Source: a virus. From it: a stretch of 40,111 nucleotides of DNA. The notes under the pieces are model-generated. The model did no database searches. It was not told the DNA's origin and was given only the letters and a program-made list of their open reading frames with translations. Both the position numbers and the translations under genes were made by a program. The stretch spans positions 1-40,111 of the IMG/VR virus record IMGVR_UViG_3300049735_000011; one strand, 5' to 3'. Position 1 is the first letter of the stretch; each line of letters opens with the position of its first letter. This document shows positions 17,871 through 40,111 of this stretch, in pieces.

Positions 17871-18181
17871 TGTTTATGGTTAAAATTAAAGGTATATTGT
17901 ATCGTTCCTAACGTTAGAATGTTGTCAGTCTTAATTGGTCTAACGTGAGACTGGCACGTTTTGTGGTCTTTTCCCACCGTCGACGGGTAAAAGGTATCCT
18001 CCTCAGAGGGCTTTTCCCAAATTGAGTAGGGAGGTAATGCTCCTCCCCTATGGTCTACTTGACTACTCTTGTGTAAGCAACGCCACGATATACGAAAGTA
18101 ACTTTCATGCTTCTCTCCTATACCTAGACCCCGTTCCATGCCTAGGATTCATGCGTCCCCGGAGGGATGAACGGACGTAGA
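17871..18181 (-). promoter_or_regulatory. Structured leader of the capsid gene
   Basis: These 311 bp between the oxygenase genes and the capsid gene carry a dense set of inverted repeats: 18148-18171 (TTCAT/ATGAA arms), 18123-18146 (CCTAG/CTAGG arms), 18094-18106 (GAAAGT/ACTTTC), 18027-18050 (TAGGGAGG arms, one bulge), the palindrome CCGTCGACGG at 17977-17986 and CTAACGTTAG at 17908-17917. The motif GGGAAAAG occurs twice. A late phage promoter, an mRNA stability element or a cis-regulatory RNA are all possible. A 17-codon ORF lies inside. Confidence 0.6.
18055..18108 (-). CDS. 17-residue micropeptide ORF with strong ribosome-binding site
   Basis: The frame encodes MKVTFVYRGVAYTRVVK and stops with TAG. 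An AGGAGAG sequence lies 4-10 nt before the ATG, one of the clearest ribosome-binding sites in a window that mostly lacks them. The YRGxxY core recalls the start of the cyanobacterial DUF4278 family (MKLTYRG-type), so it may be a truncated or minimal member. It could equally be a leader peptide that controls capsid expression through the downstream hairpins. Being only 17 codons, it needs ribosome-profiling or conservation evidence. Confidence 0.5.
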   Translation of the reverse strand: MKVTFVYRGVAYTRVVK

Positions 18182-28529: not shown

Positions 28530-28660
28530 TATTTTTTACCGGTATAAGTTTTGTCCTTAAACTTAGCTTTCTTTTTAGCTTGTTTTGTAGGTGGGTTTGG
28601 TTTCACCAGTTCCAGATCAGAAGTCTGTACTGGGATTGAAAATTGGCTCCGTAGTTTCAT
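28529..28660 (-). CDS. 43-residue basic protein between primase-helicase and DNA polymerase
   Basis: The frame starts at ATG 28660 within the end of the primase-helicase gene, runs 43 codons and ends with TAG whose last base starts the polymerase GTG. The peptide begins MKLRSQFSIPVQTSDLELVK and ends in a Lys-rich tail (KQAKKKAKFKDKTYTGKK). Such a basic tail suggests nucleic-acid or polymerase contact. The exact stop-start coupling to the polymerase supports it. The 44-nt overlap with the helicase gene is its weak point. Confidence 0.6.
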   Translation of the reverse strand: MKLRSQFSIPVQTSDLELVKPNPPTKQAKKKAKFKDKTYTGKK

Positions 28661-30176
28661 CGTATTTACATGTTTCTTTGTTGTATTTAAGTTGACATGC
28701 AACACCTACCTCTCCGGAGTAGCGATTCTTTAGAACCCGTAAGATCGTTTGGTCTACAGCTTCAGTTTGTTGGTTTCTTTCGAGTCCCCATACTTCATCT
28801 GCAAGCTGAGATATTGCAGCAGATCCTCTAAGTTGTCCTAGAGTTACGCGTGCTCCTTCTTCGTGGTTTTTGTCTGTCTGTGTTCTACGTAGATGTGATA
28901 CTAAGAATAGCTTGATTCCAGTTCTTTCAACTAAGCTACGTAGTTTAGTCATGGTGTTATCTATCATTTTCCTCTCATCACCATCTAGTCCAGATATAAG
29001 TATGGATAGGTGGTCAAGAAAGATTATTTTTGCTTCGAGTGCGAGTGCCATATATTCAATACGACTGTAAATAATATCAGGGTCAGCACTGCCGAAGTGG
29101 TCATAAAGGAAGAGACGCCAGTTTTTGAGAGTCGCATCATAAGCTGTTACTAATGTTTCCTTGGTATGTTCGCCAAGGTGTAACGCTTGACCTACAGCCA
29201 CGGACATAAGTCCTAGTGCTGTTCTTCTGTTTGACTCTTCCAAAGCAATGTAGCCTACAGGTTCGTCCTTGTCTAAGAAGTGAGTTGCCAACTGGCGTGT
29301 CAGCGTTGACTTACCCTGACCTGTGCCTGCACTGATAACAGTGAGCTCTCCGTATCTGCATCCATGTGTTAGTCTTTGCAATCCAGCAAAGGGATACTCA
29401 AAGTCACATGGTGGGCTAGGGTTTGTTACTAATTCTAGTAGTGATTGACCATCTACTATCCCATCAGGTTGATACGGCGAAGCATTCCAGATAGCCTTCC
29501 TGATCGCTTCAGCATCATTATTTTGTAGTGCGTCAGACGCATCTTTATACGGGTCTGGCAAATGAGCAATCTTAACTTTCCCAGACGGTAAGAGCGCAGC
29601 CACTGCTTCCGTCGCCAGCTTACCCGGCTCGTCTTGATCGAAGAAAAGGATAATTTCTTCATAACCTTGAAAAAGCTGAAGTTGTTTTTGTATGTCCTTT
29701 TTAGCTGACGCAGCTCCGTGAGGAAGTGAGACATGCGCCCAGTTGGGGTAAGCCTCCCAGCCCGATAGTGCATCAAGCTCTCCTTCGTAGACCATGATAC
29801 GTTTGCCAGTAGAAGGAATGAGAGACTGACCAAAAAGAGTGTCAGTAGTATTACCTTCATACTTAAAGTCTTTTAATTTTGTTTTTGTTTTGAACCCTTG
29901 AAGTGTTTTGTCGCTGCTGTAATAAGGGAAGCGTAAAAGTTCTCCATCCCTATAGACTTTGTAGTGTTGGCAGGTTTCTTCACTGATTCTTCGTTTTTGC
30001 AGCCTTTGGGCTGATCCTTTGAATTGAACATTGGTGGGCATGCTATGTGTGTGATTATCTGCTCTTGTTAAATTGTGGCAACTAAAACAAAATGTGTTGC
30101 CATCATCATAAACAGCCTTTGCATCAGAGGAGCCACATACTTCACATGGCTCGTGTCTTAAAAATTCTGCTGTCAT
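28617..30176 (-). CDS. Primase-helicase (T7 gp4-like)
   Basis: The 519-residue bifunctional enzyme has a Zn-binding primase head (C11-x2-C14 and C30-x2-C33), a TOPRIM region (VYEGELDALSGWEAYPNWAH, then ILFFDQDEPG), a Walker A motif GTGQGKSTL near residue 283 and a Walker B region IIFLDHLSIL near 388. T7 gp4 has 566 residues, so this is a full-length compact version. It makes primers and unwinds DNA at the fork. Overlaps endonuclease I by ATGA. Confidence 0.96.
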   Translation of the reverse strand: MTAEFLRHEPCEVCGSSDAKAVYDDGNTFCFSCHNLTRADNHTHSMPTNVQFKGSAQRLQKRRISEETCQHYKVYRDGELLRFPYYSSDKTLQGFKTKTKLKDFKYEGNTTDTLFGQSLIPSTGKRIMVYEGELDALSGWEAYPNWAHVSLPHGAASAKKDIQKQLQLFQGYEEIILFFDQDEPGKLATEAVAALLPSGKVKIAHLPDPYKDASDALQNNDAEAIRKAIWNASPYQPDGIVDGQSLLELVTNPSPPCDFEYPFAGLQRLTHGCRYGELTVISAGTGQGKSTLTRQLATHFLDKDEPVGYIALEESNRRTALGLMSVAVGQALHLGEHTKETLVTAYDATLKNWRLFLYDHFGSADPDIIYSRIEYMALALEAKIIFLDHLSILISGLDGDERKMIDNTMTKLRSLVERTGIKLFLVSHLRRTQTDKNHEEGARVTLGQLRGSAAISQLADEVWGLERNQQTEAVDQTILRVLKNRYSGEVGVACQLKYNKETCKYDETTEPIFNPSTDF

Positions 30177-30529
30177 TTTAACCAGTCAACTGGTATGCAG
30201 TGTGCAGCGCACCAGAGTATTCCGTATCGCTCACACCACTTTGCGTATGTAGTCTTAGATTTTTTAGATATACGTTTGTAAGGGTCTTGAAATACCATAC
30301 GAAGGTCTATCTCTGGGTTGTCCTTGATTACTTGTCTTATCTTACGCCTAGATGGTGGGTCCCAATACCCTTTAACCTCTAGGATTACTCCATTGTTAGG
30401 TAGCACAAAGTCAGGAGTATATTGATGTTGGATTGTGTAAGGGTAGGACGTCTCCTCATACTCATAGTCGACGCCCAACGTTACTAATAGGTCAGCTACC
30501 TTTTCTTCTAGACCTGATCTGAATGCCAT
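30173..30529 (-). CDS. Endonuclease I (T7 gp3-like Holliday junction resolvase)
   Basis: The 118-residue protein contains the family signature SGLEEKVA, QYTPDFVLPNNG and LEVKGYWDP, placing the catalytic residues at Glu8, Asp40, Glu51 and Lys53 (T7: Glu20, Asp55, Glu65, Lys67). It resolves branched DNA and helps degrade host DNA. The SSB gene precedes with a one-base overlap and the primase-helicase follows by ATGA, as in T7 order. Confidence 0.95.
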   Translation of the reverse strand: MAFRSGLEEKVADLLVTLGVDYEYEETSYPYTIQHQYTPDFVLPNNGVILEVKGYWDPPSRRKIRQVIKDNPEIDLRMVFQDPYKRISKKSKTTYAKWCERYGILWCAAHCIPVDWLK

Positions 30530-31098
30530 TAGAAGTCATCTTCTACTGACGAAGGTGTAGTGTCAGGTGTTACATTTGGTTCAGATGTTTTGAACCCTGC
30601 TGTACTACCAAACAAATCAGCAGCTCCTTGCTCGTCAAGGTCTCCAGTGTCGACACCTACCTCTGACTGAATACTAACTATCTGTACTCCAGATAACTTT
30701 AGTGATGTGCCATAGGTCACGCCATCTCTTAGTATGTATGGCTTTTGAGTAAATCCAAGTTTAACTTTACTGCCTGAATATACTGGTGTATCAACGTCCT
30801 TGATCGGTGTGCCTTCAGTATCTACAACTGGAGGTCTTTTGTCGTCACTCCAAGAGAACTTGATAAGATACTTACCATCACTAACTTCTTCCCATGGAGT
30901 AGGTTTTAGTGTAGATCTCTTTGGGTTTTTTAATTTAGACTCTGCCCACTTAAGACAGTCGTCTCTTTCAGTCTCTAGTTTAGAGATTAGATCTTCTCCA
31001 ACTACGGCTTTTAATGAATAGCCAAACTTGCTTGGCTTTAACACAGCTTGGAAACCTTCTAAGGTTACAGGCTCGGGTGTTACGTGTATGTTTCTCAT
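30529..31098 (-). CDS. Single-stranded DNA-binding protein (T7 gp2.5-like)
   Basis: The 189-residue protein has the OB-fold layout and the acidic, Phe-ended C-terminus (SSVEDDF) used by T7 gp2.5 to bind polymerase and helicase. Motifs include FGYSLKAVVG and PYILRDGVTYGTSLKLSGVQ. T7 gp2.5 has 232 residues, so this is a shorter cyanopodovirus form. Overlaps the RNA polymerase gene by one base (TAATG). Confidence 0.93.
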   Translation of the reverse strand: MRNIHVTPEPVTLEGFQAVLKPSKFGYSLKAVVGEDLISKLETERDDCLKWAESKLKNPKRSTLKPTPWEEVSDGKYLIKFSWSDDKRPPVVDTEGTPIKDVDTPVYSGSKVKLGFTQKPYILRDGVTYGTSLKLSGVQIVSIQSEVGVDTGDLDEQGAADLFGSTAGFKTSEPNVTPDTTPSSVEDDF

Positions 31099-33428
31099 TA
31101 ACAGAAAAAATATTGTGAATCAATTACGGCTTCTGGTTTCAGATCGCCAATAATCGGTGGTTGTTCTTCAGCTCCTATTGCTAGGGCGAAGTCGGTTAGT
31201 GGTTCATGCTCTGCGAACAGGTGCATGTAAGTTTTGCGTACAAGGCTTGATAGCGTACACATGTCTGTAGCTCTACATAATACACTGTCATGTATCAATG
31301 CAATGGGAAAGTTGGTTGATGTTGTAGCTAGATGAAGTAGGCTTGCATCTAATGAATGTATTAGATTAGGTGCAGTAGCATTCTTGTGATGGTTCAGGTC
31401 AACACCTGTCTCAGCTCCGGCTACATATATCTCACATCTACCCATAAGTTGAGTACGTATTATAGTTGACTTATACTTCATTAACTTTTGCTTAACATTA
31501 AAACCTGATGGTGTTGTCCATCTGATTTCGCCAGCTCCAGCTCTGATAGCTCGTGCTATCTCTTGTTCAATCCATTTCATTACGCTCATAGCTCCCGGAA
31601 CTACCTCGTTCATGGCAGATCGTACAGCTTTTACGCATTGTGTCAACTCTTCTTTGTCTACATCTACGCCCTTGTCTTTGAATGCGTCCCTGATGTAGGA
31701 GCGATTAGAGAAAGGTTTAGCATTGTATGGTATGGTCATCACACAACGCTTTGTTACCTTTCTATCCCAGTGGGGTTTTAGCCGATCAGGGATTGCGTCC
31801 ATGCTTTTTGCTGCAATAGTTGCATAAGCGTCTTGGGGTTTTTCACTCCCTATGACGTTTACCATACGAGCAGTGGACGCATCCTTGGCAAGTCCTGCCA
31901 AGATTTGTAAACCACTACATGTAGCGTCTACAGCTACAGGCAGATGTGTTGTGTCAGTGTGTCCCATAATGAGACTGACATACTCATTTGCAGCAGCTAG
32001 AAATAACCAAGGCTCGTCTGCATTTTCCCAGTCAGCTATGTATTTGATAGGGTCCTTGACAATTCTAAATACAAGATCTTGGTTAGCTGGTATAGATACC
32101 CACTCTAACCTCTCTTCCATTGTAGCTTTGTCTAACCCATACGTAGTAGCTAACTGAAATTTTATCCAGTCTAAACCCTTGGCGTTTATCTTAGCACCTT
32201 CATTAAATAAAATCAAACTTTTTCCAAAGTCTGTGTCTTGTGGTGTAAGTAAACTAGGTATTGGGTATGCTCTACCCCGATAGTCAAAACTCCAAGGTAT
32301 ATAAAATACCTCGTCTTCAAACTCTCGTACTACTTCCATAGTCATACGAGTTCGGCAGGACTTACGTACTTCAGCAGCCTGCAAGTTTCTAGCTATCGTT
32401 GCTGCTTTTTTCCAACTCTTCCATACCTCCTTGCTTGCCTCTTCTGGAGGTTTTGGAGGGATATCATGTTGAATGACAGGTCTAAATTTTCCTACGCTAA
32501 TTCCTCTATCCTCTAACTCTTTCGCTACCTCTACTATAAAAGGATTTAGCTTGTAAGAAACTTGTTGGATTTTGTTAATAAACTCGTAAGGTATTTCTCC
32601 CTGTATAAGCCCGTCATCGGTCTTGCGTATCAAATTATGGCAACGTGTCAAATCATTTAGATAATAACCACCGTCTTGGAGAGCATTCCAATTACGTGGA
32701 GGGATAAGCATAGGCTTAGCAAGTGGGCTAAATAGCTCAGCCATTCGCATGATTTCGGCATGTTGTTTGATAAGTAGGGAGGATGGTACAAATACTGCTA
32801 TAGTCTTTCTACCTTTACGCACTAAATCCCTCTCGAACCATCCTGATACTTCCATCAGACAGTCCATGAGAAAGGTTCCGACCTTGACTTTGGTCGTTTT
32901 ATCCCAATGCACCCAAGGGGATATGTTTGTCTTGTGCATAAGTGTTTGAATGCACTTACGCTTGTACTCTGTACCCTTGGCTTGATGCCAATAGTTCTTT
33001 TTTAGTGTAGTTAACAAGGCTGGTGCTTCCTTGTCATAGTATTCCATCTGGGCTTCAGCTTCTATCGCTGCGCCAATAGCTATAGCTATAGTCGTTACAC
33101 TGTGTTTCTTCTGTTGTGGCGAAAACACATGGTCAAACACAACCTTACACGTAAGCAAGGCTTGTACTTCTGAGCCACTGGGTAGGATATGCTTGTGAAA
33201 GATGGCATAGTTTTTACCAGCTTGGGTCAAAAACTTTTCTTTTTTACTATCAATGAATGCAATAAGATCAGGCAATATTGAACTAACGCATGCTGAGCCA
33301 TAAACGGTAGCACTTGCATAAGTCTTTTCTTCTAACTTTGTAGTGTTAGCATGTAACTTATGTAAGCCTCCTTGTATTTGTTTACGCTCGTAGTTCTGCT
33401 GGTCCTGTATTTGTTGTTCAGTTAGCAT
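31098..33428 (-). CDS. Single-subunit T7-type RNA polymerase
   Basis: The 776-residue polymerase has motif A DATCSGLQ (Asp501), motif B KRCVMTIPYNAKPFS with the sugar-selecting Tyr, and motif C IHDS (Asp714). The C-terminus SQYFFC is the conserved foot that packs near the active site in T7 (FAFA). It is about 107 residues shorter than T7 gp1, mostly in the N-terminal domain that includes the promoter-recognition and lysozyme contacts. It should transcribe the middle and late genes. No phage-specific promoter consensus is evident to me in the window. Confidence 0.98.
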   Translation of the reverse strand: MLTEQQIQDQQNYERKQIQGGLHKLHANTTKLEEKTYASATVYGSACVSSILPDLIAFIDSKKEKFLTQAGKNYAIFHKHILPSGSEVQALLTCKVVFDHVFSPQQKKHSVTTIAIAIGAAIEAEAQMEYYDKEAPALLTTLKKNYWHQAKGTEYKRKCIQTLMHKTNISPWVHWDKTTKVKVGTFLMDCLMEVSGWFERDLVRKGRKTIAVFVPSSLLIKQHAEIMRMAELFSPLAKPMLIPPRNWNALQDGGYYLNDLTRCHNLIRKTDDGLIQGEIPYEFINKIQQVSYKLNPFIVEVAKELEDRGISVGKFRPVIQHDIPPKPPEEASKEVWKSWKKAATIARNLQAAEVRKSCRTRMTMEVVREFEDEVFYIPWSFDYRGRAYPIPSLLTPQDTDFGKSLILFNEGAKINAKGLDWIKFQLATTYGLDKATMEERLEWVSIPANQDLVFRIVKDPIKYIADWENADEPWLFLAAANEYVSLIMGHTDTTHLPVAVDATCSGLQILAGLAKDASTARMVNVIGSEKPQDAYATIAAKSMDAIPDRLKPHWDRKVTKRCVMTIPYNAKPFSNRSYIRDAFKDKGVDVDKEELTQCVKAVRSAMNEVVPGAMSVMKWIEQEIARAIRAGAGEIRWTTPSGFNVKQKLMKYKSTIIRTQLMGRCEIYVAGAETGVDLNHHKNATAPNLIHSLDASLLHLATTSTNFPIALIHDSVLCRATDMCTLSSLVRKTYMHLFAEHEPLTDFALAIGAEEQPPIIGDLKPEAVIDSQYFFC

Positions 33429-33438
33429 TTAGTGTAAA

Positions 33439-33555
33439 TTAGTTGTCGTCTTTTACTTGCTCTAACATTATAGCAATGAGTTCGTCCTTGTGTGGGTGGT
33501 TTTCAACAAGTGTTGTTAGTTGTTGTAACCTACGTTCAAATGTTGTCTTGTGCAT
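33439..33555 (-). CDS. 38-residue helical protein before RNA polymerase
   Basis: The peptide starts MHKTTFERRLQQLTTLVENH and ends IAIMLEQVKDDN. The start overlaps the upstream gene's 3' end by 20 nt, and the stop lies 10 bp before the RNA polymerase ATG. Its amphipathic helical pattern and natural codon use suggest a real gene. One copy of the CAAGGACG octamer lies inside. Function is unknown. Confidence 0.65.
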   Translation of the reverse strand: MHKTTFERRLQQLTTLVENHPHKDELIAIMLEQVKDDN

Positions 33556-33871
33556 CGTTATTAAAATCAATGTTTAGTGGATTTGGAATCAGGTGATAAA
33601 CACCTTCATCTGTTGCTAGTGTTATGTGTTTATTAGTTCCTATCTCTTTTTTTAGTCTCATCTTTGTGTGATGCTCAGACTTGTATGTATGTTCTGTAAT
33701 CTTACCTGTGTCCTTGTCCTCTATCCTGACTATACCGAAGTGTGAGCTGGGCAGTTGATAACCATGTATCTTCCATGCACGTAGCTCTTCGTATTCCATT
33801 GCAGGAAAGTAGTTAGGTGGGCATGCCTTGATAGCATCCCAGTTGTTTGGGTAGTACTTACGTCGTTTCAT
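33536..33871 (-). CDS. Conserved-looking early protein, 111 residues
   Basis: The start is the ATG at 33871, which forms ATGA with the previous stop. The product starts MKRRKYYPNNWDAIKACPPN and contains FPAMEYEELRAWKIHGYQLP and a basic central part. It resembles a hypothetical protein usually found just before RNA polymerase in cyanopodoviruses (KRRKYYPNNW start). An upstream start at 33916 would overlap the previous gene by 49 nt. Function is unknown. Confidence 0.75.
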   Translation of the reverse strand: MKRRKYYPNNWDAIKACPPNYFPAMEYEELRAWKIHGYQLPSSHFGIVRIEDKDTGKITEHTYKSEHHTKMRLKKEIGTNKHITLATDEGVYHLIPNPLNIDFNNDAQDNI

Positions 33872-34020
33872 GTTCTTGATACGTTCAATAGATTGTAATT
33901 GTGTGCTACTACCCAATCAAGGGCAAAATATGCTGCATCTTCGTCGCTTGGTGCACGAGTATACATGTGTGATTTGTTTTTTGGCTGACCTTTTATACAA
34001 TAGTCGATCTTGTAAATCAT
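33868..34020 (-). CDS. Small early protein, 50 residues
   Basis: From ATG 34020 the peptide is MIYKIDYCIKGQPKNKSHMY, followed by RAPSDEDAAYFALDWVVAHN. A GTG start at 34074 is possible (68 residues), but the first 18 residues would include the odd MPEKNLRYV stretch over a hairpin. The beta-strand then helix pattern fits a small single-domain protein. Function is unknown. The stop couples to the next gene by ATGA. Confidence 0.6.
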   Translation of the reverse strand: MIYKIDYCIKGQPKNKSHMYTRAPSDEDAAYFALDWVVAHNYNLLNVSRT

Positions 34021-34100
34021 GGCAAATGTGTGTTTTTTGAAGGTACAAACGTACCGGAGGTTTTTTTCAGGCACCTCTGAGGCGATTTAAACGCCATGTT

Positions 34101-34304
34101 TTAGCAGATGAAATGACCAGAACAGCTAAATTGCCACTTAAACGGGTACATGTCACCATATTCCTTGGCAACACGTTTGTCTACAATGTTTGCGATTGCG
34201 TCCCTGTCCTCGTATGTGAGAATGTCGGCAATGTTTATGTCCTTGGTACGGTGGAGCTTTTTGTTGAAGTCTTCCGCCTGTTTCATAAGATCATGGTACT
34301 CCAT
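34101..34304 (-). CDS. Small early protein, 67 residues
   Basis: The ATG at 34304 shares a base with the previous TGA stop (TGATG). The product starts MEYHDLMKQAEDFNKKLHRT and is helical and acidic in the middle, with a C-terminal SCSGHFIC. I do not recognise the family. It ends the five-gene coupled microcassette that begins at 35119. An 80-bp gap with a GAGGT/ACCTC hairpin at about 34054-34077 follows. Confidence 0.6.
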   Translation of the reverse strand: MEYHDLMKQAEDFNKKLHRTKDINIADILTYEDRDAIANIVDKRVAKEYGDMYPFKWQFSCSGHFIC

Positions 34305-34492
34305 CAGAACAAGAAGCCTCCGTCCTTGTCGAACTCGTTGAGTTTCTCATTGACTTTGTATGGCTTGAGCCTTACGTCCATGTATAGTACAAGGTACTCG
34401 GCTGCTCTTCTTACTTTGTCGTCGTCCCATTCTGGACGTGCTCTACGTACTGCTTGAGAGTAGTTGAGTTGTTGGGTGATGTCGATTGTCAT
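34304..34492 (-). CDS. Small early protein, 62 residues
   Basis: The peptide MTIDITQQLNYSQAVRRARP continues with WDDDKVRRAAEYLVLYMDVR and ends LNEFDKDGGFLF. It is coupled by ATGA to the 43-residue gene before it and by TGATG to the next. Helical, with balanced charge. The codon pair AAG-GAC near the end contributes a CAAGGACG copy. Function is unknown. Confidence 0.65.
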   Translation of the reverse strand: MTIDITQQLNYSQAVRRARPEWDDDKVRRAAEYLVLYMDVRLKPYKVNEKLNEFDKDGGFLF

Positions 34493-34620
34493 TGTCGAGT
34501 GAGTTTTTTGATTAGTTGTTTAGTGCGTTTCTTTGCTGCCTGTATGATGCGTACATGTTTCTTGTACTTGGGCTGCTTGTCGCTGTGGTGTTGCCAGTTT
34601 GGAACACGTGGAGTAATCAT
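34489..34620 (-). CDS. 43-residue highly basic early protein
   Basis: The frame is linked to both neighbours by ATGA overlaps (34620-34617 and 34492-34489), which makes it a real gene despite its size. The peptide starts MITPRVPNWQHHSDKQPKYK and continues with many Lys and Arg (AAKKRTKQLIKKLTRQ). Net charge is strongly positive, so binding to nucleic acid or an acidic host protein is plausible. T7-like phages encode small host-takeover proteins in this position. Confidence 0.7.
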   Translation of the reverse strand: MITPRVPNWQHHSDKQPKYKKHVRIIQAAKKRTKQLIKKLTRQ

Positions 34621-34808
34621 TGGATTAGTTCTCCTTCGGGTGATACCTGTACAGCATAGTCTATTATTGGCATCATAACAACTGTATTTACCCTTTCAGG
34701 TAAGTTTGCAGGGTCTTGAGCCTTTAACTCAGCTTCTTTTTTTGAGTTAGCTTCTACTCTGTAGTAATGGTAAACTAACTTTCTTTCTCTAACTTCGTAG
34801 GTAGTCAT
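34617..34808 (-). CDS. Small early protein, 63 residues
   Basis: The start is the ATG at 34808 in ATGA overlap with the upstream stop. The product is MTTYEVRERKLVYHYYRVEA, followed by NSKKEAELKAQDPANLPERV and a short beta segment. The layout of beta strand, helix with alternating charge and strands suggests a small alpha/beta fold. Function is unknown. An in-frame start at 34862 lies inside the upstream gene and is unlikely. Confidence 0.65.
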   Translation of the reverse strand: MTTYEVRERKLVYHYYRVEANSKKEAELKAQDPANLPERVNTVVMMPIIDYAVQVSPEGELIQ

Positions 34809-35119
34809 ACGTCGCAAAGGTTGGGGTAAAATGTGTCGTGAGCATCTGCTGCATCCCTGCATTCTAGCTCATTCTGATACTCTTCGTGTGATGTACTGAT
34901 CTCTTCAAGTTTCTCAAAGAGTTCACGTGGTGAGTATTTGTACATTGCGTCCTCGCCAAGTATGACGTCGCAAACGTTGATAACAAACCAGTGCTTGAGC
35001 TGGCTGTCGTCCATTAGCCCTCCGTCCCTGTCATAGGCGTCTAGAGAGTTATGGTAGTGGTGACATTCCATGATGCCGTCCTTGTCTGGGTCTGGTGGTG
35101 GTCCGAATTGAAAGCTCAT
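34805..35119 (-). CDS. Acidic early protein, 104 residues
   Basis: The protein is rich in Asp, Glu, His and Cys, starts MSFQFGPPPDPDKDGIMECH and contains FVINVCDVILGEDAMYKYSP. No family recognised. It opens a chain of five genes (down to 34101) whose junctions are ATGA, ATGA, ATGA and TGATG. Acidic early proteins in T7-like phages often target host enzymes as DNA mimics, but that is speculation here. Confidence 0.65.
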   Translation of the reverse strand: MSFQFGPPPDPDKDGIMECHHYHNSLDAYDRDGGLMDDSQLKHWFVINVCDVILGEDAMYKYSPRELFEKLEEISTSHEEYQNELECRDAADAHDTFYPNLCDV

Positions 35120-35186
35120 AATAAATAGGTGAACTGATAGTAGTCTAATTGGTAAAGGTTAAATATGTGGATTATTGTAACAATTC

Positions 35187-35294
35187 TTAATATGATGGGT
35201 CACCTTCTGGTTCTGGGTAGGTGGGTACGTCCTTGCGTTTAGTTTTAGGGAGCGTCTGCGTCCCTGCGTCCATGCTTGTGAATGATTGTGGCAT
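35187..35294 (-). CDS. Possible 35-residue protein in the early intergenic region
   Basis: The frame from ATG 35294 encodes MPQSFTSMDAGTQTLPKTKR followed by KDVPTYPEPEGDPSY. The Pro/Glu end and lack of stop codons upstream suggest coding. It has no ribosome-binding site, and its 5' part overlaps a tandem repeat. The rest of the 294-bp spacer before 35414 holds the terminator and repeats. Confidence 0.4.
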   Translation of the reverse strand: MPQSFTSMDAGTQTLPKTKRKDVPTYPEPEGDPSY

Positions 35295-35337
35295 ATGATT
35301 GTGTATGAGTGTGGCGTCCTTGATTGTGATGATTGTG
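35283..35337 (-). repeat. Iteron-like CACAATCA repeats
   Basis: Minus-strand CACAATCA (plus TGATTGTG) occurs at 35283, 35296, 35321 and 35330, with a one-base variant at 35306. That is five units in 55 bp, spaced 9-15 bp. The next sequence carries GGACGCA-type repeats (about 35258-35280). It lies between a terminator and the next early gene. An origin, protein-binding array or leader element are options. Confidence 0.55.
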
Positions 35338-35353
35338 TGCTTGTGAAAATAAT

Positions 35354-35394
35354 AAAAAAGCCGAAACCCCTGTCATAGCAGGGGATGTCGGGAT
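35354..35394 (-). terminator. Rho-independent terminator in the early region
   Basis: The minus strand forms a long hairpin, with CCGACATCCCCTG pairing to CAGGGGTTTCGG across a 6-nt loop, then a run of six Ts. It stands 20 bp past the stop of a 55-residue gene and should end or attenuate the first early transcript. Confidence 0.9.
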
Positions 35395-35413
35395 TATTTA
35401 ATTATATTAAATT

Positions 35414-35581
35414 TTACGAATTAACTACAACTCTTGCATATTCATAACGGGCAGAATTATATCCTGCCTCCTTGTGAATTACCCGAAAGCCCTTGTCTAG
35501 CAAGGACTTATGGGTTTCATCCGCGCGTCGTGTAGACTCGGGTGAGCTGTCATCATAAACCATATAAATATGGTTATCCAT
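35414..35581 (-). CDS. Small early protein, 55 residues
   Basis: The ATG at 35581 has a good GGAGG site about 10 nt upstream, inside the previous gene. The product starts MDNHIYMVYDDSSPESTRRA and contains LLDKGFRVIHKEAGYNSARY. The strand-helix-strand pattern suggests a small alpha/beta protein. The longer frame from 35629 overlaps the previous gene and is unlikely. Function unknown. It is followed directly by the strong terminator. Confidence 0.7.
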   Translation of the reverse strand: MDNHIYMVYDDSSPESTRRADETHKSLLDKGFRVIHKEAGYNSARYEYARVVVNS

Positions 35582-36275
35582 TTGTGATTGCCTCCAATGT
35601 TTGATTAAGTTTTTTAGCTCTATTGCCATGAGCTAAGAATGCAACTGCACACTTGCGTTTGGCTTGAGCACATAGACCACAGTCTACGCAGTTTGTGTCG
35701 GATGTTTGAGCTGGACAGACAACAACTTTATTGTTGTTAGGTGTTAGTGTTGGGACGTCCTTGCTGTTGTCTACGACAACTACCGCAGGAATCCCGTTAG
35801 CGATAGCGTCGTCAACTTGAGACATAGTCTCACAACTGGCGTTAACTGTGAAGCCGTTGTTGTTGGCATACTTAACAGCCTCGAGATTATGTATATAATC
35901 TAGCTTGTGGTGTGTGTAAGTATAACCTCTAGCTTTGCTAGCTTTGTTGGCATCGACTAAAGACTTGAGCAAGTCAAGTCTGATTAGCTCACGTCCTTGC
36001 TGATCGGTTGTATAACCGAGGTCACCAGCTTGGTTGTGGCGCCAGATTTGGCGAGGCTTGAGACTACTAACGTAGTCACAAAGCTCAGACCAAGAACCAC
36101 CTCTCTCTTGAGAGGTGACTTTTTTCCAATGCTGAGCTAAATGAAATCCAGATTTTGCGTAGCAATTTCCAGTGATATGTGGACAAGTAGTTGGACATGA
36201 TGAAGCCTCAGTGGTAGTAACTGGCATTCTGCCAGTCTTTGCATTTGCTGAGCGCTTGGTGATGTGGACAAACAT
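35574..36275 (-). CDS. Cys-rich early protein, DUF7227-like
   Basis: The 233-residue protein has an N-terminal Cys cluster (CPTTCPHITGNCYAKSGFH) and a C-terminal one (CPAQTSDTNCVDCGLCAQAKRKC). The second has a ferredoxin- or Zn-like spacing, CxxCxxC with outlying Cys. The middle (WRHNQAGDLGY, KLDYIHNLEAVKYA, VNASCETMSQVDDAI) looks like a TIM-barrel or radical-SAM-like beta/alpha repeat. Similar proteins with the GNCYAK motif occur in many phages and plasmids with no established function. Metal or Fe-S binding is inferred from the cysteines. Confidence 0.75.
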   Translation of the reverse strand: MFVHITKRSANAKTGRMPVTTTEASSCPTTCPHITGNCYAKSGFHLAQHWKKVTSQERGGSWSELCDYVSSLKPRQIWRHNQAGDLGYTTDQQGRELIRLDLLKSLVDANKASKARGYTYTHHKLDYIHNLEAVKYANNNGFTVNASCETMSQVDDAIANGIPAVVVVDNSKDVPTLTPNNNKVVVCPAQTSDTNCVDCGLCAQAKRKCAVAFLAHGNRAKKLNQTLEAITNG

Positions 36276-36300
36276 GACAGGATGAAAGTTAAGTGGACAT

Positions 36301-36350
36301 TTACCCTAAAGGGTAATAGCGTCCTTGGGAATCGAACCCAAGCAAGGACC
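36301..36350 (-). other. tRNA T-arm-like hairpin plus adjacent palindrome
   Basis: On the minus strand a perfect 6-bp stem (CTTGGG/CCCAAG) encloses TTCGATT, exactly a tRNA T-arm, and is followed by GGACGCTA like a 3' acceptor strand (36342-36317). No D-arm, anticodon arm or 5' acceptor strand is found upstream. Next to it the 7-bp palindrome TTACCCT/AGGGTAA lies at 36301-36316. A phage attachment site, an integration relic or a non-tRNA hairpin is possible. No integrase gene is in the window. Confidence 0.55.
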
Positions 36351-36371
36351 AACGACGCAGGGATTAACTAC

Positions 36372-36677
36372 CTAGAAAGGTAGTGAATCAGTAGCGTAGC
36401 CAACGCCAGTTTGCTGGTAGCATAGCTTACCAGTAGCTACAGTGTTACCTCTTAGGTAACCAAGAGCTAGTACAGCATTCTTGCTGAGCTCTTGAATCCA
36501 GAAACCAAAGGACATGTTAGGGTTAATCATAAGATTAACAATCTTAGCTCTGCTAACATTTGAGTACTTGTACTCATAACCGTTGGTAAATCTAACATTG
36601 ACAACCCTTGTAAAAGGGTTAACGTTGATAGCCTCGATAGCATCTGATGTACGAGGAGCTGGAATTGAAGTGAACAT
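36372..36677 (-). CDS. KTSC-domain-like early protein
   Basis: The 101-residue protein starts MFTSIPAPRTSDAIEAINVN. The central part RVVNVRFTNGYEYKYSNVSR followed by MSFGFWIQELSK fits the KTSC small-domain pattern (beta strands F.nG..Y.Y.nV, then S.G..). KTSC domains are found in small DNA- or RNA-associated proteins, but their role is unproven. It is the first gene after the long non-coding region, so it should be the first early product from the promoter near talC. Confidence 0.65.
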   Translation of the reverse strand: MFTSIPAPRTSDAIEAINVNPFTRVVNVRFTNGYEYKYSNVSRAKIVNLMINPNMSFGFWIQELSKNAVLALGYLRGNTVATGKLCYQQTGVGYATDSLPF

Positions 36678-37206
36678 AATCGAAAGTTGTAATTGAACAG
36701 TGAGTAGAGAGTTGTAGTTAAGTTATATTATCTCTCTCACCTATTCTAGGAGAGAGAATATAACATAACGTAAACAACTCTATCTACACCCTCCATTGTA
36801 GTCGGTCTTGGCAAGCATTACAAATCATCTTAACATTCTGTAACAATATATAACTACGTAGTAGTATATTATTGTTGTCTCATCTGTGTCTCAAGCTGGC
36901 AACAGATCGCTTCTCATGCTCGCGTTCTTGTTATCCGCGTGCCTGTATGCCTGCGCGATTTAGTGGTATCCGCTCGCCTACGGCTCGCTCCCTCTGCAGT
37001 ACTGTCTCCTTGACAGCACTACATATCGTGAGAACCCTTGCTATCACTGGCTGTAGCGGTGCGAGCGAAGCGAGCTGGACTCGCATTGGACACGCATACG
37101 CGATCAATTAACGCGTGCGTGCCTGTGCGTTAGAAGAGCACCCCTCCATGGGGGGTCCTGCCGGCGTCGACTATATATAATACACCTGACAAATTTCTGT
37201 CAAAAA
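36678..37206 (-). other. Gene-free early control region, possible genome end or origin
   Basis: About 530 bp hold no accepted gene. Features by position: hairpin with TTATATT and TCTCTC arms 36723-36763; large imperfect cruciform 36842-36876 with the palindrome ACTACGTAGT; GCTCGC/GCGAGC repeats at 36972-36988 and 37061-37075; hairpin AGT-CTGTC/GACAG-ACT 36998-37020; G+C-rich hairpin ACCCC/GGGGT 37140-37156. The block about 36890-37130 is far more G+C-rich than its surroundings. The promoter is at its right end. Related phages have their genome ends between talC and the early genes. Confidence 0.6.
37174..37203 (-). promoter_or_regulatory. Near-consensus host sigma-70 promoter for early genes
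   Basis: A perfect -35 box TTGACA (37203-37198), an 18-nt spacer and a TATATA -10 box (37179-37174), or TTATAT with 17 nt, read toward the early genes. The -35 box touches the talC stop codon. The -35 half of the promoter lies in an inverted repeat, TGACA/TGTCA at 37202-37187, that could serve as an operator. Confidence 0.8.
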
Positions 37207-37851
37207 TTATGCCTGTCCGCTATCAGCTAAGAATTGAAATAAACCCTTATCTGTAAGCACATGTTTGTACATATCGTCAAATACTTTTGGCGGTATGGTA
37301 CAAATGTGTGCACCGGCTTGAAATGCTTTACCAACTGTAGCAGCATCACGTATGCTTGCAGCTAGTATTTTAGTATCTGATCTGTTATGACAAAATACTT
37401 TAGCTATTTCACGTATCAGTCCTATGCCATCATGTCCATTGTCGTCTAAACGTCCAACAAACGGTGACACATAGGTTGCACCAGCTAATGCACAAAGTAT
37501 CGCTTGACTAACACTAAACACTAAGGTCATGTTAGTACGTATGCCCATAAAATTAAGCATTTTACAAGCTTTTATGCCTTCTGGTGTACAAGGTAGTTTG
37601 ATAGTAGCTTGGTCTATCCATAGCTTACCGTATTGTATGCCATTTTCTATAAGTTTGTCTGCATACTTACCATCTACCTCTATCGACACGTCTTGTACGC
37701 CTAAGTCTTGTATTAAGTCAGCGTACACGTCGTCTGGTTCCCTACCACTTTTTTTAATTAGTGTAGGGTTAGTAGTTACACCGGATATAACTCCAGCGTC
37801 TAATCTTTTATCTATATCTTTAATAATAGCTGAGTCTAGAAACAGCTTCAT
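37207..37851 (-). CDS. talC: Transaldolase, TalC type
   Basis: The 214-residue enzyme has the short TalC/Fsa form: N-terminal FLDSA, GVTTNPTL, and the Schiff-base lysine Lys85 in TIKLPCTPEG. NMTLVFSVSQA and the C-terminal AASIRD motif are also present. It acts in the pentose phosphate pathway. Phage TalC is thought to move host carbon toward NADPH and ribose for nucleotide synthesis, which fits the RNR genes here. The early promoter begins at its stop codon. Its start is coupled by ATGA to a 26-residue membrane peptide. Confidence 0.96.
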   Translation of the reverse strand: MKLFLDSAIIKDIDKRLDAGVISGVTTNPTLIKKSGREPDDVYADLIQDLGVQDVSIEVDGKYADKLIENGIQYGKLWIDQATIKLPCTPEGIKACKMLNFMGIRTNMTLVFSVSQAILCALAGATYVSPFVGRLDDNGHDGIGLIREIAKVFCHNRSDTKILAASIRDAATVGKAFQAGAHICTIPPKVFDDMYKHVLTDKGLFQFLADSGQA

Positions 37852-37928
37852 TTAAAAACTCCTATACGGGTGAGAACGTACATTGTTAGTATCGTCCAGA
37901 ATAGTATTTCTAATCCTATATTATTCAT
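37848..37928 (-). CDS. 26-residue single-span membrane peptide
   Basis: The peptide MNNIGLEILFWTILTMYVLT, ending RIGVFK, is a single hydrophobic helix with polar ends. The ATG overlaps the previous stop by 8 nt and the TGA overlaps the talC start (ATGA), which is strong evidence for a real gene. Possible roles include a membrane regulator, an antiholin or lysis helper, or a spacer that couples talC translation. I cannot choose between them. Confidence 0.6.
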   Translation of the reverse strand: MNNIGLEILFWTILTMYVLTRIGVFK

Positions 37929-38196
37929 CTTCTTCAGCTTCAGGAAAGTATCCTATAGTAAAACCGCCATCCTCTGTCTCTTCTATAACAGCTTTGTACA
38001 CTGGCTCTGACAACTCGTCCATTTTTGCGTGGTACTCGTCGATAGCCATGTCTACTGTTTGTTGTGTTTTTAGATTTATCCATCTGTTTTCTAATCCAAT
38101 TAACATGCCTAGTATCAGGAAGTTAAGGGGTGGGAAAGGAGTCTTCAGACTCTTGTATAACTCTTTAAAGTGGTTTATTTTTAGTTTATTTTCCAT
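37921..38196 (-). CDS. Small protein with acidic C-terminus, 91 residues
   Basis: From ATG 38196 (MENKLKINHFKELYKSLKTP) the product contains a hydrophobic middle (PLNFLILGMLIGLENR) and an acidic end (PEAEEDE). An alternative start 15 bp upstream at 38211 would overlap the Zn-ribbon gene more. In T7-like cyanophages an unassigned small gene, sometimes called a putative small terminase or gp18-type product, lies here. I see no DNA-binding motif to support that. Confidence 0.55.
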   Translation of the reverse strand: MENKLKINHFKELYKSLKTPFPPLNFLILGMLIGLENRWINLKTQQTVDMAIDEYHAKMDELSEPVYKAVIEETEDGGFTIGYFPEAEEDE

Positions 38197-38332
38197 GGTA
38201 CACAAAAACAAGTGAATCGCAGTTGTTACAACTTAAATTTGTACGTAACTTATATTCATACTCTTCATCTTCTTGCTCTAGGCTTTCGTCTCCACCCCAT
38301 ATAAGAGGTGTATTACATACATAACAGTTCAT
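38186..38332 (-). CDS. Zn-ribbon microprotein, 48 residues
   Basis: From ATG 38332 the product has two Cys pairs, C3-x2-C6 (MNCYVC) and C36-x2-C39-type (LSCNNCDS), with an acidic loop between (SLEQEDEEYEYK). This is the pattern of a small zinc ribbon. The longer frame to 38416 has an unrelated Ser/Thr-rich head. It overlaps the next gene by 11 nt. Cyanophages carry similar two-CxxC microproteins. Function is unknown. Confidence 0.65.
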   Translation of the reverse strand: MNCYVCNTPLIWGGDESLEQEDEEYEYKLRTNLSCNNCDSLVFVYHGK

Positions 38333-38379
38333 AGTTAAGTTAATGGTAGTAGTTAGAAGTGATATCAAAAAGGATATCC

Positions 38380-38436
38380 GGCTAACAGTGGATGTATTTA
38401 GTGAGGGAGAGTCCACCCTTCTCTCCCCTATTAGCC
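38380..38436 (-). terminator. Nested hairpin after the terminase gene
   Basis: The gap of 115 bp after the terminase stop contains nested inverted repeats: outer GGCTAA/TTAGCC (38380-38385 and 38431-38436) and inner GGGAGAG/CTCTCCC (38405-38411 and 38421-38427). There is no T-run, so it may be an RNase site or a weak terminator rather than a classic one. Confidence 0.4.
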
Positions 38437-38447
38437 CGTCATCGGTC

Positions 38448-40111
38448 TCAGACCCACGTATGACTACCTTTGCTACCAGACTTACCTCGAGCCTCTTTAC
38501 GCTGCTCTACGTCCAATCCTAGCACCAAATGGTTTGTCATTGCCTGTGGGTCGTCTATAAACTGTTCTAGTATATCGTTCCACTCGTCTCTTTTTCTTTG
38601 TTTGATCTGTTCCTGTGCTGATATAGACAGTGCATCTATGTAGTATTTTATACCTTGCGCTAGACAGTCTAACCTGTCATCGTGCTTAACTGCATACTTC
38701 TGTCTACACATGCGACTCATTTGATAGAACAACATGTATAAAAGCCTTTCTTCTGGAGGAGCTTCTCTGTTGGAGTTATAATCCCATTCGATAACAGACT
38801 TGTCAACAATAAGACGGTGCTGATTAAGCACAGGCTCGAGAGTATCAATAATCCTGTCTTCTTTTCTAACATTAGCTCTTACCTCTTCTACTAATATACG
38901 TTGTTTTGTCTGTTGTAAGTGTTTCTTAAATAGCTCTGCTACTATACCATCACCAAAGTTAGACTCTATTACAAGTGTATTTACGTTGTATTTTTTACAA
39001 CCTTTTAGTATGTCTAACAGGGTGCTATCGGAATACCCATCCCTATAGGCACGCATTTCGTGTAGATAGAGTAAGCCATTTTTTTGCGAAATGTACGCTG
39101 CTGCCGTTTCGTCTGCTCCTCTACCGGAGGGGTCGACTGAGCAGATGGTTTCTTGGTAGTCTGTCCATTCCCCCTGTATTTGCATCGGAGAGTAGAAGTA
39201 GTCCCCGGGTAAACCCACTGTGGGCAAATCCTTAAGTACATTCCGTGGGTCTGAGCACCATACGATATTGTCGGGTGCTTTAGTAGGATTGACGCTAGTA
39301 ACAACAAGGTCAGCCATCTTGAGAGGAAACTTCTCAGCATCTGATAGACTTGTATCCAACATAAACTGCAACATAAAGTTGCTACGTCCCATAGATGCTT
39401 CCCGTTCAACAAGGTCATCTTCACTAAATCTGTCATCTGTAGGTGTCCATGGTGTTACTCCTTTGTCTATGTCTTCTTGTAGCTGTGGAGCTATAAGTCC
39501 TTCGTAAGGGGTATTGTTTCTTGGGTATCGCGCGGTCCAAATAAATGGTTTGTAATTCCTGCTTGCCAGCTTACGATAAATAGTAAAAGTAGTCTGAGGA
39601 GTCCCGAGATACATAATACGGCTATCGTCTTTTGGCGTAAGGATCGACTCGGCTTCTGTACAGAGTTGGAGGAGTTTTTCACGCATCAACTCCGTCATGC
39701 TGTTTCCCGGTACCTCTATGTCGTCCAGAATCATTAGGTCTGCTCTGCTTCCCGTTAGCTGACCAGTAATACCAACACTTTTGACTGATGGTGCCTGATG
39801 AGGTGAACATAGAACGTCGAAGGAAATTCTTGACCATCTCGCGTCGTCGCTCTTTGGTTGTAGGTGACTTAGCCATGGTGTTTCAATAATAAGTTTTTGT
39901 AAGAAGATACTCATGTTGTCAGCTCTTTCCTTAGAAGCTGATATAATCATTATCTTCTTTTCTGCGTCATTGAAGAGTGTCCACAACACAAACGCTCCAG
40001 TAATCCAACTTTTTCCGACTCCTCGGAAGGCTTGGATCTGTAAACGTTTTGGTCCGTGTTGTAAATAGTCTGCAATGGCGTATTGTGCCCTAGTAGGTGA
40101 GGGTAGATCAA
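38448..40111 (-). CDS. Terminase large subunit (gp19-like), 5' end missing
   Basis: The open frame continues past the right edge of the window. It contains Walker A FRGVGKSW near its visible start, a Walker B-like region RADLMILDDIE, and the nuclease acidic cluster around VDPSGRGADETAAAYI, with later conserved DRIIDTLEPVLNQHR and HDDRLDCLAQGI. At least 554 codons are visible, of an expected about 590-600. It packages DNA by ATP hydrolysis and cuts concatemers. A GTG-started shorter frame is only an artefact of the edge. Confidence 0.96.
   Translation of the reverse strand, partial: DLPSPTRAQYAIADYLQHGPKRLQIQAFRGVGKSWITGAFVLWTLFNDAEKKIMIISASKERADNMSIFLQKLIIETPWLSHLQPKSDDARWSRISFDVLCSPHQAPSVKSVGITGQLTGSRADLMILDDIEVPGNSMTELMREKLLQLCTEAESILTPKDDSRIMYLGTPQTTFTIYRKLASRNYKPFIWTARYPRNNTPYEGLIAPQLQEDIDKGVTPWTPTDDRFSEDDLVEREASMGRSNFMLQFMLDTSLSDAEKFPLKMADLVVTSVNPTKAPDNIVWCSDPRNVLKDLPTVGLPGDYFYSPMQIQGEWTDYQETICSVDPSGRGADETAAAYISQKNGLLYLHEMRAYRDGYSDSTLLDILKGCKKYNVNTLVIESNFGDGIVAELFKKHLQQTKQRILVEEVRANVRKEDRIIDTLEPVLNQHRLIVDKSVIEWDYNSNREAPPEERLLYMLFYQMSRMCRQKYAVKHDDRLDCLAQGIKYYIDALSISAQEQIKQRKRDEWNDILEQFIDDPQAMTNHLVLGLDVEQRKEARGKSGSKGSHTWV

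Follow-up and report, generated by a model that had tools for sequence, protein, structure and literature searches.

Phage T4 RegB cuts early mRNA at GGAG/GGAU together with the host protein S1 (PMC3014915), and the class II termination/pause signal of the T7 RNA polymerase (RNAP), ATCTGTT, is 7 nt long and hairpin-free (PMC9624206). Here, we analyzed a DNA stretch of 40,111 nucleotides from a marine cyanobacterial virus (IMG/VR record IMGVR_UViG_3300049735_000011; the whole stretch is termed the window), in which an original prediction, made from the letters alone, had noticed an octamer, CAAGGACG, repeated in one orientation in the early region. This observation is correct, and bigger than first stated. 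The octamer is the most frequent form of a broader motif, CANGGACG(YA), and the word recurs in the clade of T7-like cyanophages around P-SSP7 (P-SSP7/P-GSP1/S-CBP). The nearest named relative of the window is the Prochlorococcus phage P-GSP1, with approximately 91% identity over positions 33300-40111.

Every gene in the motif region is encoded on the minus strand. Ten exact copies of CAAGGACG were found in the window, all ten on the minus strand and within positions 29264-36327, while the plus strand has none. The eight copies listed in the original prediction are exact, rightly placed, and in one orientation, and the same holds for the two extra copies at 29264 and 30795; no copy is present in positions 1-29263, including the tail and fibre genes, as had been noted. 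Dinucleotide shuffling of the whole window gave 0.65 copies on average and three at most, versus 10 in the real sequence. The chance expectation had been given as about 0.1 for the span; Markov models expected 0.06 (order 1) and 0.18 (order 2) copies on the minus strand of 33300-37200, where eight copies were observed. Together with seven further copies in the forms of CATGGACG (three) and CAGGGACG (four), the window contains 17 copies of the broader motif, every one of them early and on the coding strand, and single-change scans marked the third base as the main free position. The observed/expected counts in 17 close IMG/VR loci were 89/2.5 for CAAGGACG, 27/2.2 for CATGGACG, 19/1.1 for CAGGGACG, and 6/1.0 for CACGGACG, with no CAAGGACG on the reverse strand. 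The consensus of 103 non-redundant sites was CA(A63 T23 G10 C7)GGACG(C53 T26)(A54), i.e., CANGGACGYA, beyond which no strongly informative flank was found. Pairing of the flanks in these sites was at expectation, and a hairpin context of the word was ruled out as the flanks do not pair. Many relatives carry the word in tandem with an 8-bp register (CAAGGACGCAAGGACGCA). Overall, the spacing of the copies was not significantly regular (Fisher P = 0.07; S-CBP4 by itself, P = 0.005). In a wide IMG/VR scan for clustered copies, repetitive-protein genes formed a background among the matches listed.

The original prediction had also offered a local codon-pair signature, namely a codon-pair or protein-level effect (Lys-Asp, D-K-D-G) with the non-coding copies arising by chance. 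We shuffled synonymous codons within the genes of eight early regions in 400 trials, preserving both protein and codon usage (the window/P-GSP1 and P-SSP3/P-SSP2 pairs limit the independence of the eight genomes). The coding copies numbered 67, about threefold the shuffled mean of 21.3 and far above the shuffled maximum of 32, in a comparison that had been named beforehand as able to overturn the prediction. Each of the eight genomes exceeded the maximum of its own 400 shuffles. The excess was seen in all three frames (49, 13, and 5 copies versus 14.1, 6.8, and 0.4 after shuffling), and 15 additional copies lay outside the called genes, consistent with the earlier remark that some copies are AAG-GAC codons and others are non-coding or in another frame. 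The non-coding copy at 35315 is conserved in P-GSP1, and that at 36320 in P-GSP1 and about 20 IMG/VR loci (Table 1). In the DUF7227 gene of 20 relatives, we counted 30 copies, whereas shuffling gave 3.8 on average and 9 at most. Depending on the relative, the word stands in one stretch of this gene at column 89 in frame 2 or column 93 in frame 0, and further along at column 171 in frame 2, column 176 in frame 1, or column 207 in frame 0. Similarly, the copies in the RNAP gene occupy many different non-homologous alignment columns in three frames. Altogether, these data show that CANGGACG(YA) is an oriented cis signal selected as nucleic acid, regardless of the reading frame. Therefore, we reject the codon-pair signature: the AAG GAC frame accounts for 49 of the 67 coding copies, but the synonymous shuffles, the use of three frames, the non-coding copies, the frame-shifted replacement in DUF7227, and the sharp limits of the domain described below leave that explanation with almost no probability. 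The word looks like a real control signal, not a by-product of protein coding.

Having fixed the word on the window, we counted it elsewhere on the coding strand of early regions against an order-2 expectation. The observed/expected counts were 16/0.75 (P-GSP1), 7/0.69 (P-SSP7), 10/0.59 (P-SSP3), 10/0.54 (P-SSP2), and 7/0.45 (NATL1A-7). Further counts were 4/0.41 (S-B28), 11/0.97 (S-CBP3), 7/0.56 (S-CBP4), 3/0.48 (S-RIP1), 7/0.91 (S-RIP2), 9/1.36 (S-SBP1), and 10/1.69 (S-TIP37). Little enrichment was seen in S-CBP1, S-SRP01, and DSL-LC07 (2 to 3 copies each); the early regions of P-SSP10, 9515-10a, SS120-1, and P60 have no copy, and those of S-CBP42 and Syn5 have one each. In an unbiased ranking that covered the early regions of ten genomes but neither the window nor P-GSP1 nor P-SSP2, CAAGGACG came top of all octamers (38 copies versus 2.40 expected; found in each of the ten genomes) and CATGGACG came second; among gapped words, CANGGACG came first. 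No strand bias of the word was found in T7, Syn9, P-SSM2, or PSS2, and the host genomes were not enriched (in 1.7 Mb, 7 copies versus 50 for the reversed control word, with five other genomes being similar). Between the window and P-GSP1, 11 of the 12 aligned sites are kept, versus 6.1 predicted from flank identity (P = 5e-4).

The copy densities around the RNAP gene delimit the domain of the word. On the coding strand of 14 genomes, 88 copies were found upstream of this gene and 18 within it (5.5 per 10 kb). Measured from the RNAP gene start, 14 copies followed at 2.3-5 kb, one at 5-10 kb (70 kb of sequence), and 12 further on (0.33 per 10 kb); the opposite strand of the 14 whole genomes has 12 copies. 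Thus, the domain starts at the left genome end, includes the RNAP gene, and ends at the primase/helicase gene, covering about the early quarter of the genome. The IMG/VR contigs with tandem copies have the same domain end. The order of the RNAP, single-stranded DNA (ssDNA)-binding, endonuclease, and primase/helicase genes is that of T7. A T7-like promoter, which would be expected before middle and late genes, fits poorly, as the word is absent past the helicase gene.

Table 1. Copies of the word and reference features in the window (KD, Lys-Asp; ORF, open reading frame).
Feature	Position	Strand	Remarks
Minihelix, tRNA acceptor/T-arm-like	36319..36358	-	GCGTC / 11-nt linker / 6-bp stem with TTCGATT loop / GACGC
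CAAGGACG	36320..36327	-	Non-coding leader; 3' strand of the minihelix; kept in P-GSP1 and ~20 IMG/VR loci
Hairpin TTACCC-TTTA-GGGTAA	36301..36316	-	Directly downstream of the minihelix; compensatory changes in relatives
CAAGGACG	35992..35999	-	DUF7227 gene, frame CAA GGA CG (QGR); 4 codons off and in other frame in relatives
CAAGGACG	35756..35763	-	DUF7227 gene, frame AAG GAC (KD); shifted to frame GCA AGG ACG in other relatives
CAAGGACG	35315..35322	-	Non-coding; flanked by a terminator-like hairpin (with T run) and the next small ORF; kept in P-GSP1
CATGGACG	35267..35274	-	Degenerate
CAGGGACG	35259..35266	-	Degenerate; tandem with 35267 copy, 8-bp register
CAAGGACG	35228..35235	-	KD, small ORF; same context in L030
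CAAGGACG	35077..35084	-	DKDG, ORF 34805-35119; same context in L032, L034, L036
CAGGGACG	35023..35030	-	Degenerate
CATGGACG	34375..34382	-	Degenerate; ORF 34304-34492
CAAGGACG	34321..34328	-	DKDG, ORF 34304-34492
CAGGGACG	34199..34206	-	Degenerate; ORF 34101-34304
CAAGGACG	33483..33490	-	KD, small ORF upstream of RNAP gene; copy lost in P-GSP1 (CAAAGAAG instead)
T7-like RNAP gene	31098..33428	-	Reference point of the domain
CATGGACG	31796..31803	-	Degenerate; RNAP gene
CAGGGACG	31685..31692	-	Degenerate; RNAP gene
CAAGGACG	30795..30802	-	KD, ssDNA-binding protein gene
Primase/helicase gene	28617..30176	-	Motif domain ends inside
CAAGGACG	29264..29271	-	KD, primase/helicase gene; right-hand limit of the domain

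Two small early proteins (34805-35119 and 34304-34492, minus strand) bear DKDG/FDKDG stretches, like the start of an EF-hand loop, and CAAGGACGG encodes both.

The copy at 36320, which the original prediction took for half of a T-arm-like hairpin, is indeed the 3' strand of a conserved minihelix, in which the loop TTCRANY and both stems are kept across 19 distinct sequences. The stem of 6 or 7 bp and GCGTC/GACGC give a total stack of 11 or 12 bp. The likeness to a tRNA T arm/acceptor lies in the loop, in this acceptor-like plus T-like stack, and in the GG-containing linker; unlike a tRNA, the minihelix has no anticodon arm, D arm, or CCA. ARAGORN called no tRNA gene for it, and Rfam at the gathering score gave no family for the element at 36294-36365 (minus strand), which comprises the minihelix and the covarying hairpin upstream of the DUF7227 gene. 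Among the sources searched, a covariance model detected the minihelix in 20, each belonging to the P-GSP1 group, with the next scores at chance. Since the outer stem is invariant, its support comes from conservation, not covariation. In cyanopodoviruses, the known attP sites correspond to the first half of tRNA-Leu (PMC8776855). The minihelix resembles the T arm instead, and an exact match of its 23-mer is absent from 84,980 prokaryote genomes; we rejected an attP or host-tRNA origin. The 36320 copy may be a separate structured RNA feature that shares the word.

As for the role of the word, we rank first, with a probability of roughly 0.4, a tag on early transcripts following a RegB-like logic, which is an inferred reading. 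CANGGACG(YA), mostly as CAAGGACG, on the sense strand of the early region would mark early transcripts; a reader, probably phage-encoded, would recognize the word on early mRNA, and the tagged messages would be handled differently from middle and late ones. The simplest action would be that early mRNA is cut or destabilized at the switch to phage-polymerase transcription, and a nuclease or RNA-processing reader is possible. The presence of many redundant copies at positions that tolerate them suits a tag that would operate by copy number, the count mattering more than the exact position. In more general terms, we tentatively consider a previously undescribed phage cis signal, i.e., a redundant oriented word across the whole early operon, coding and non-coding, which marks messages or templates and whose marks a phage-encoded factor would use at the early-to-middle switch.

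The reader is more likely encoded by the phage than by the host, because carriers and non-carriers of the word share host strains: strain WH8109 has Syn5 (without) and S-TIP37 (with), and strain WH7803 has S-CBP42 (without), S-RIP2, and S-SBP1 (both with). The presence of the word tracks the phage clade, not the host, and its best correlate is RNAP relatedness; the clearly enriched genomes share at least ~52% RNAP identity with the window, and the non-enriched ones at most 43%. No early protein family was present in all carriers and in no non-carrier, except ORFs overlapping larger genes in a different frame. The KTSC and phrog_9569 proteins were discarded as the reader, since they are common to carriers yet also occur in the motif-free P-SSP10 and 9515-10a. 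The phrog_9569 protein (33536-33871, minus strand) is lysine-rich, 111 amino acids long, and starts with KRRKYYPNNW; it was found in 13 of 13 motif-bearing genomes and two motif-free ones. Its AlphaFold model (mean predicted local distance difference test, or pLDDT, score of 66) has a predicted beta-beta-alpha-beta-beta core and no significant PDB match.

Several observations weigh against a tag on early transcripts. The AAG GAC frame holds 49 of the 67 coding copies, and protein constraint thus contributes to the possible positions of the copies. In predicted folds, the sites were 0.40 unpaired versus 0.46 for the word placed randomly, which weakens a simple RNA-binding reading, although coding sites would in any case be opened by translation. 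In addition, the 36320 copy is paired within its hairpin. A search for regB (PF10715) gave no match in 11 records, the control genomes being equally silent. Furthermore, an mRNA signal is inseparable from a non-template DNA signal, as all genes of the domain are on one strand. A transcription-elongation signal on the non-template strand or nascent RNA ranks second and is the other role that we favor, with a somewhat lower probability. The copies would be pause/partial-termination sites for the single-subunit RNAP of the clade, in a form like T7 class II, or for the host polymerase; with the phage RNAP, they would put a brake on early-region transcription or on read-through from concatemers. 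The word, being short, oriented, hairpin-free, and independent of reading frame and RNA accessibility, suits such a role, for which the class II signal is a precedent, and its presence follows the RNAP identities given above. On the other hand, it is dissimilar to ATCTGTT, and S-CBP1, S-SRP01, and DSL-LC07 belong to the RNAP clade with little or no enrichment.

Some other role at the DNA level, such as Chi-like protection, replication/primase, packaging/genome entry, or binding of a phage protein, ranks third and appears improbable. The left end of the T7 genome enters the cell first, and the domain, with its short oriented word, lies at the corresponding end. However, a RecBCD-type enzyme coming from the left end would presumably read the strand opposite to a Chi-like word, and the host genomes are not enriched; as for primase, there is nothing past the helicase gene and the other strand is empty for a second fork. 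The 'recognition site' of the original prediction stands in general (selected as nucleic acid, oriented, and lineage-wide). Of the readers proposed there, neither primase nor packaging suits the data well, given that the domain ends at the helicase gene and the word is on a single strand. Sites of the CsrA/RsmA type (CANGGANG), functioning singly or as a sponge, are very improbable. The CsrA consensus has an A-N-GGA core, which CANGGACG matches with its third position free, but position 7 is invariably C, CAAGGATG is not enriched, the flanks of the 103 sites are unpaired, six picocyanobacterial genomes gave no CsrA (the control was detected), and cyanophage names are 0 of 85 among phage records with CsrA. 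A Shine-Dalgarno (SD) role was rejected: CATGGACG, though lacking AAGGA, is more enriched than CAAGGAGG, which is the stronger SD-like form.

Additional signals were observed. A second coding-strand word, CACACTCA/CACAATCA/CACAATCG, is over-represented in early regions (24 copies of CACACTCA versus 2.5 expected in those of 10 genomes) and lies in the window at 35282-35344 (minus strand), the CACAATCA/CACACTCA repeats adjoining the 35315 copy. It is also present in the early region of NATL1A-7 and at positions 2502, 3524, 6026, 9422, and 12513 of P-SSP7. P-SSP7 has five copies of the 12-mer ACACACTCATCA, one immediately ahead of the RNAP start codon; this 12-mer and the T7 promoter have ACTCA in common, and the 12-mer may act as a phage promoter or translation-start element. 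Some CATGGACG copies overlap annotated start codons (C|ATG|GAC), namely at S-CBP4 1896, S-TIP37 1523, and S-SBP1 648. The late 8-mer TCCCGGAA was rejected as a promoter, being inconsistent across genomes. Finally, a Glutamine-II riboswitch (RF01704, 50.9 bits) lies at 18122-18176 (minus strand) in the psbA/capsid region.

T7-like cyanophages rank among the important viruses that infect Prochlorococcus and Synechococcus, and the open literature we found has little on the separation of early and late expression in them. No description of the motif was found in the open literature searched; a prior mention is possible in papers behind a subscription that deal with cyanopodovirus genomes or P-SSP7 expression, which were outside this search. 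A clade-wide selected signal limited to the early operon is a concrete handle on early/late separation, and a same-host pair with and without the word is available (S-TIP37 and Syn5 on WH8109). Since phages of this group have already been engineered (PMC8776855), recoding of the sites is feasible. Looking for words that survive synonymous shuffling can reveal overlapping nucleic-acid codes within phage genes.

Compared with the known systems, the word resembles RegB sites, at the level of sequence, in its GGA core with 3' preferences, its location in early transcripts in both gaps and coding sequence, and its restriction to the sense strand. It differs in that GGAC belongs to a fixed word of 7 bases that prefers a YA tail, is strongly enriched, and sits mostly in coding sequence; the fourth base is C instead of the G/U of RegB sites, and GGA is no more exposed than in the control. 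The word shares with the T7 class II signal a short, oriented, hairpin-free form that would work with a single-subunit phage polymerase, but the sequence (CANGGACGYA) is unrelated, and ~7-17 copies are found in the early region only. With CsrA/RsmA sites (CANGGANG) it shares the CANGGA core and the free third base, whereas here there is no hairpin, position 7 is C, and the hosts and cyanophage records searched gave no CsrA. Like Chi and other oriented octamers, the word is an oriented, over-represented, and frame-independent octamer; in contrast to Chi, it occupies one quarter of a phage genome, is not enriched in the hosts, and has the wrong orientation for left-end entry.

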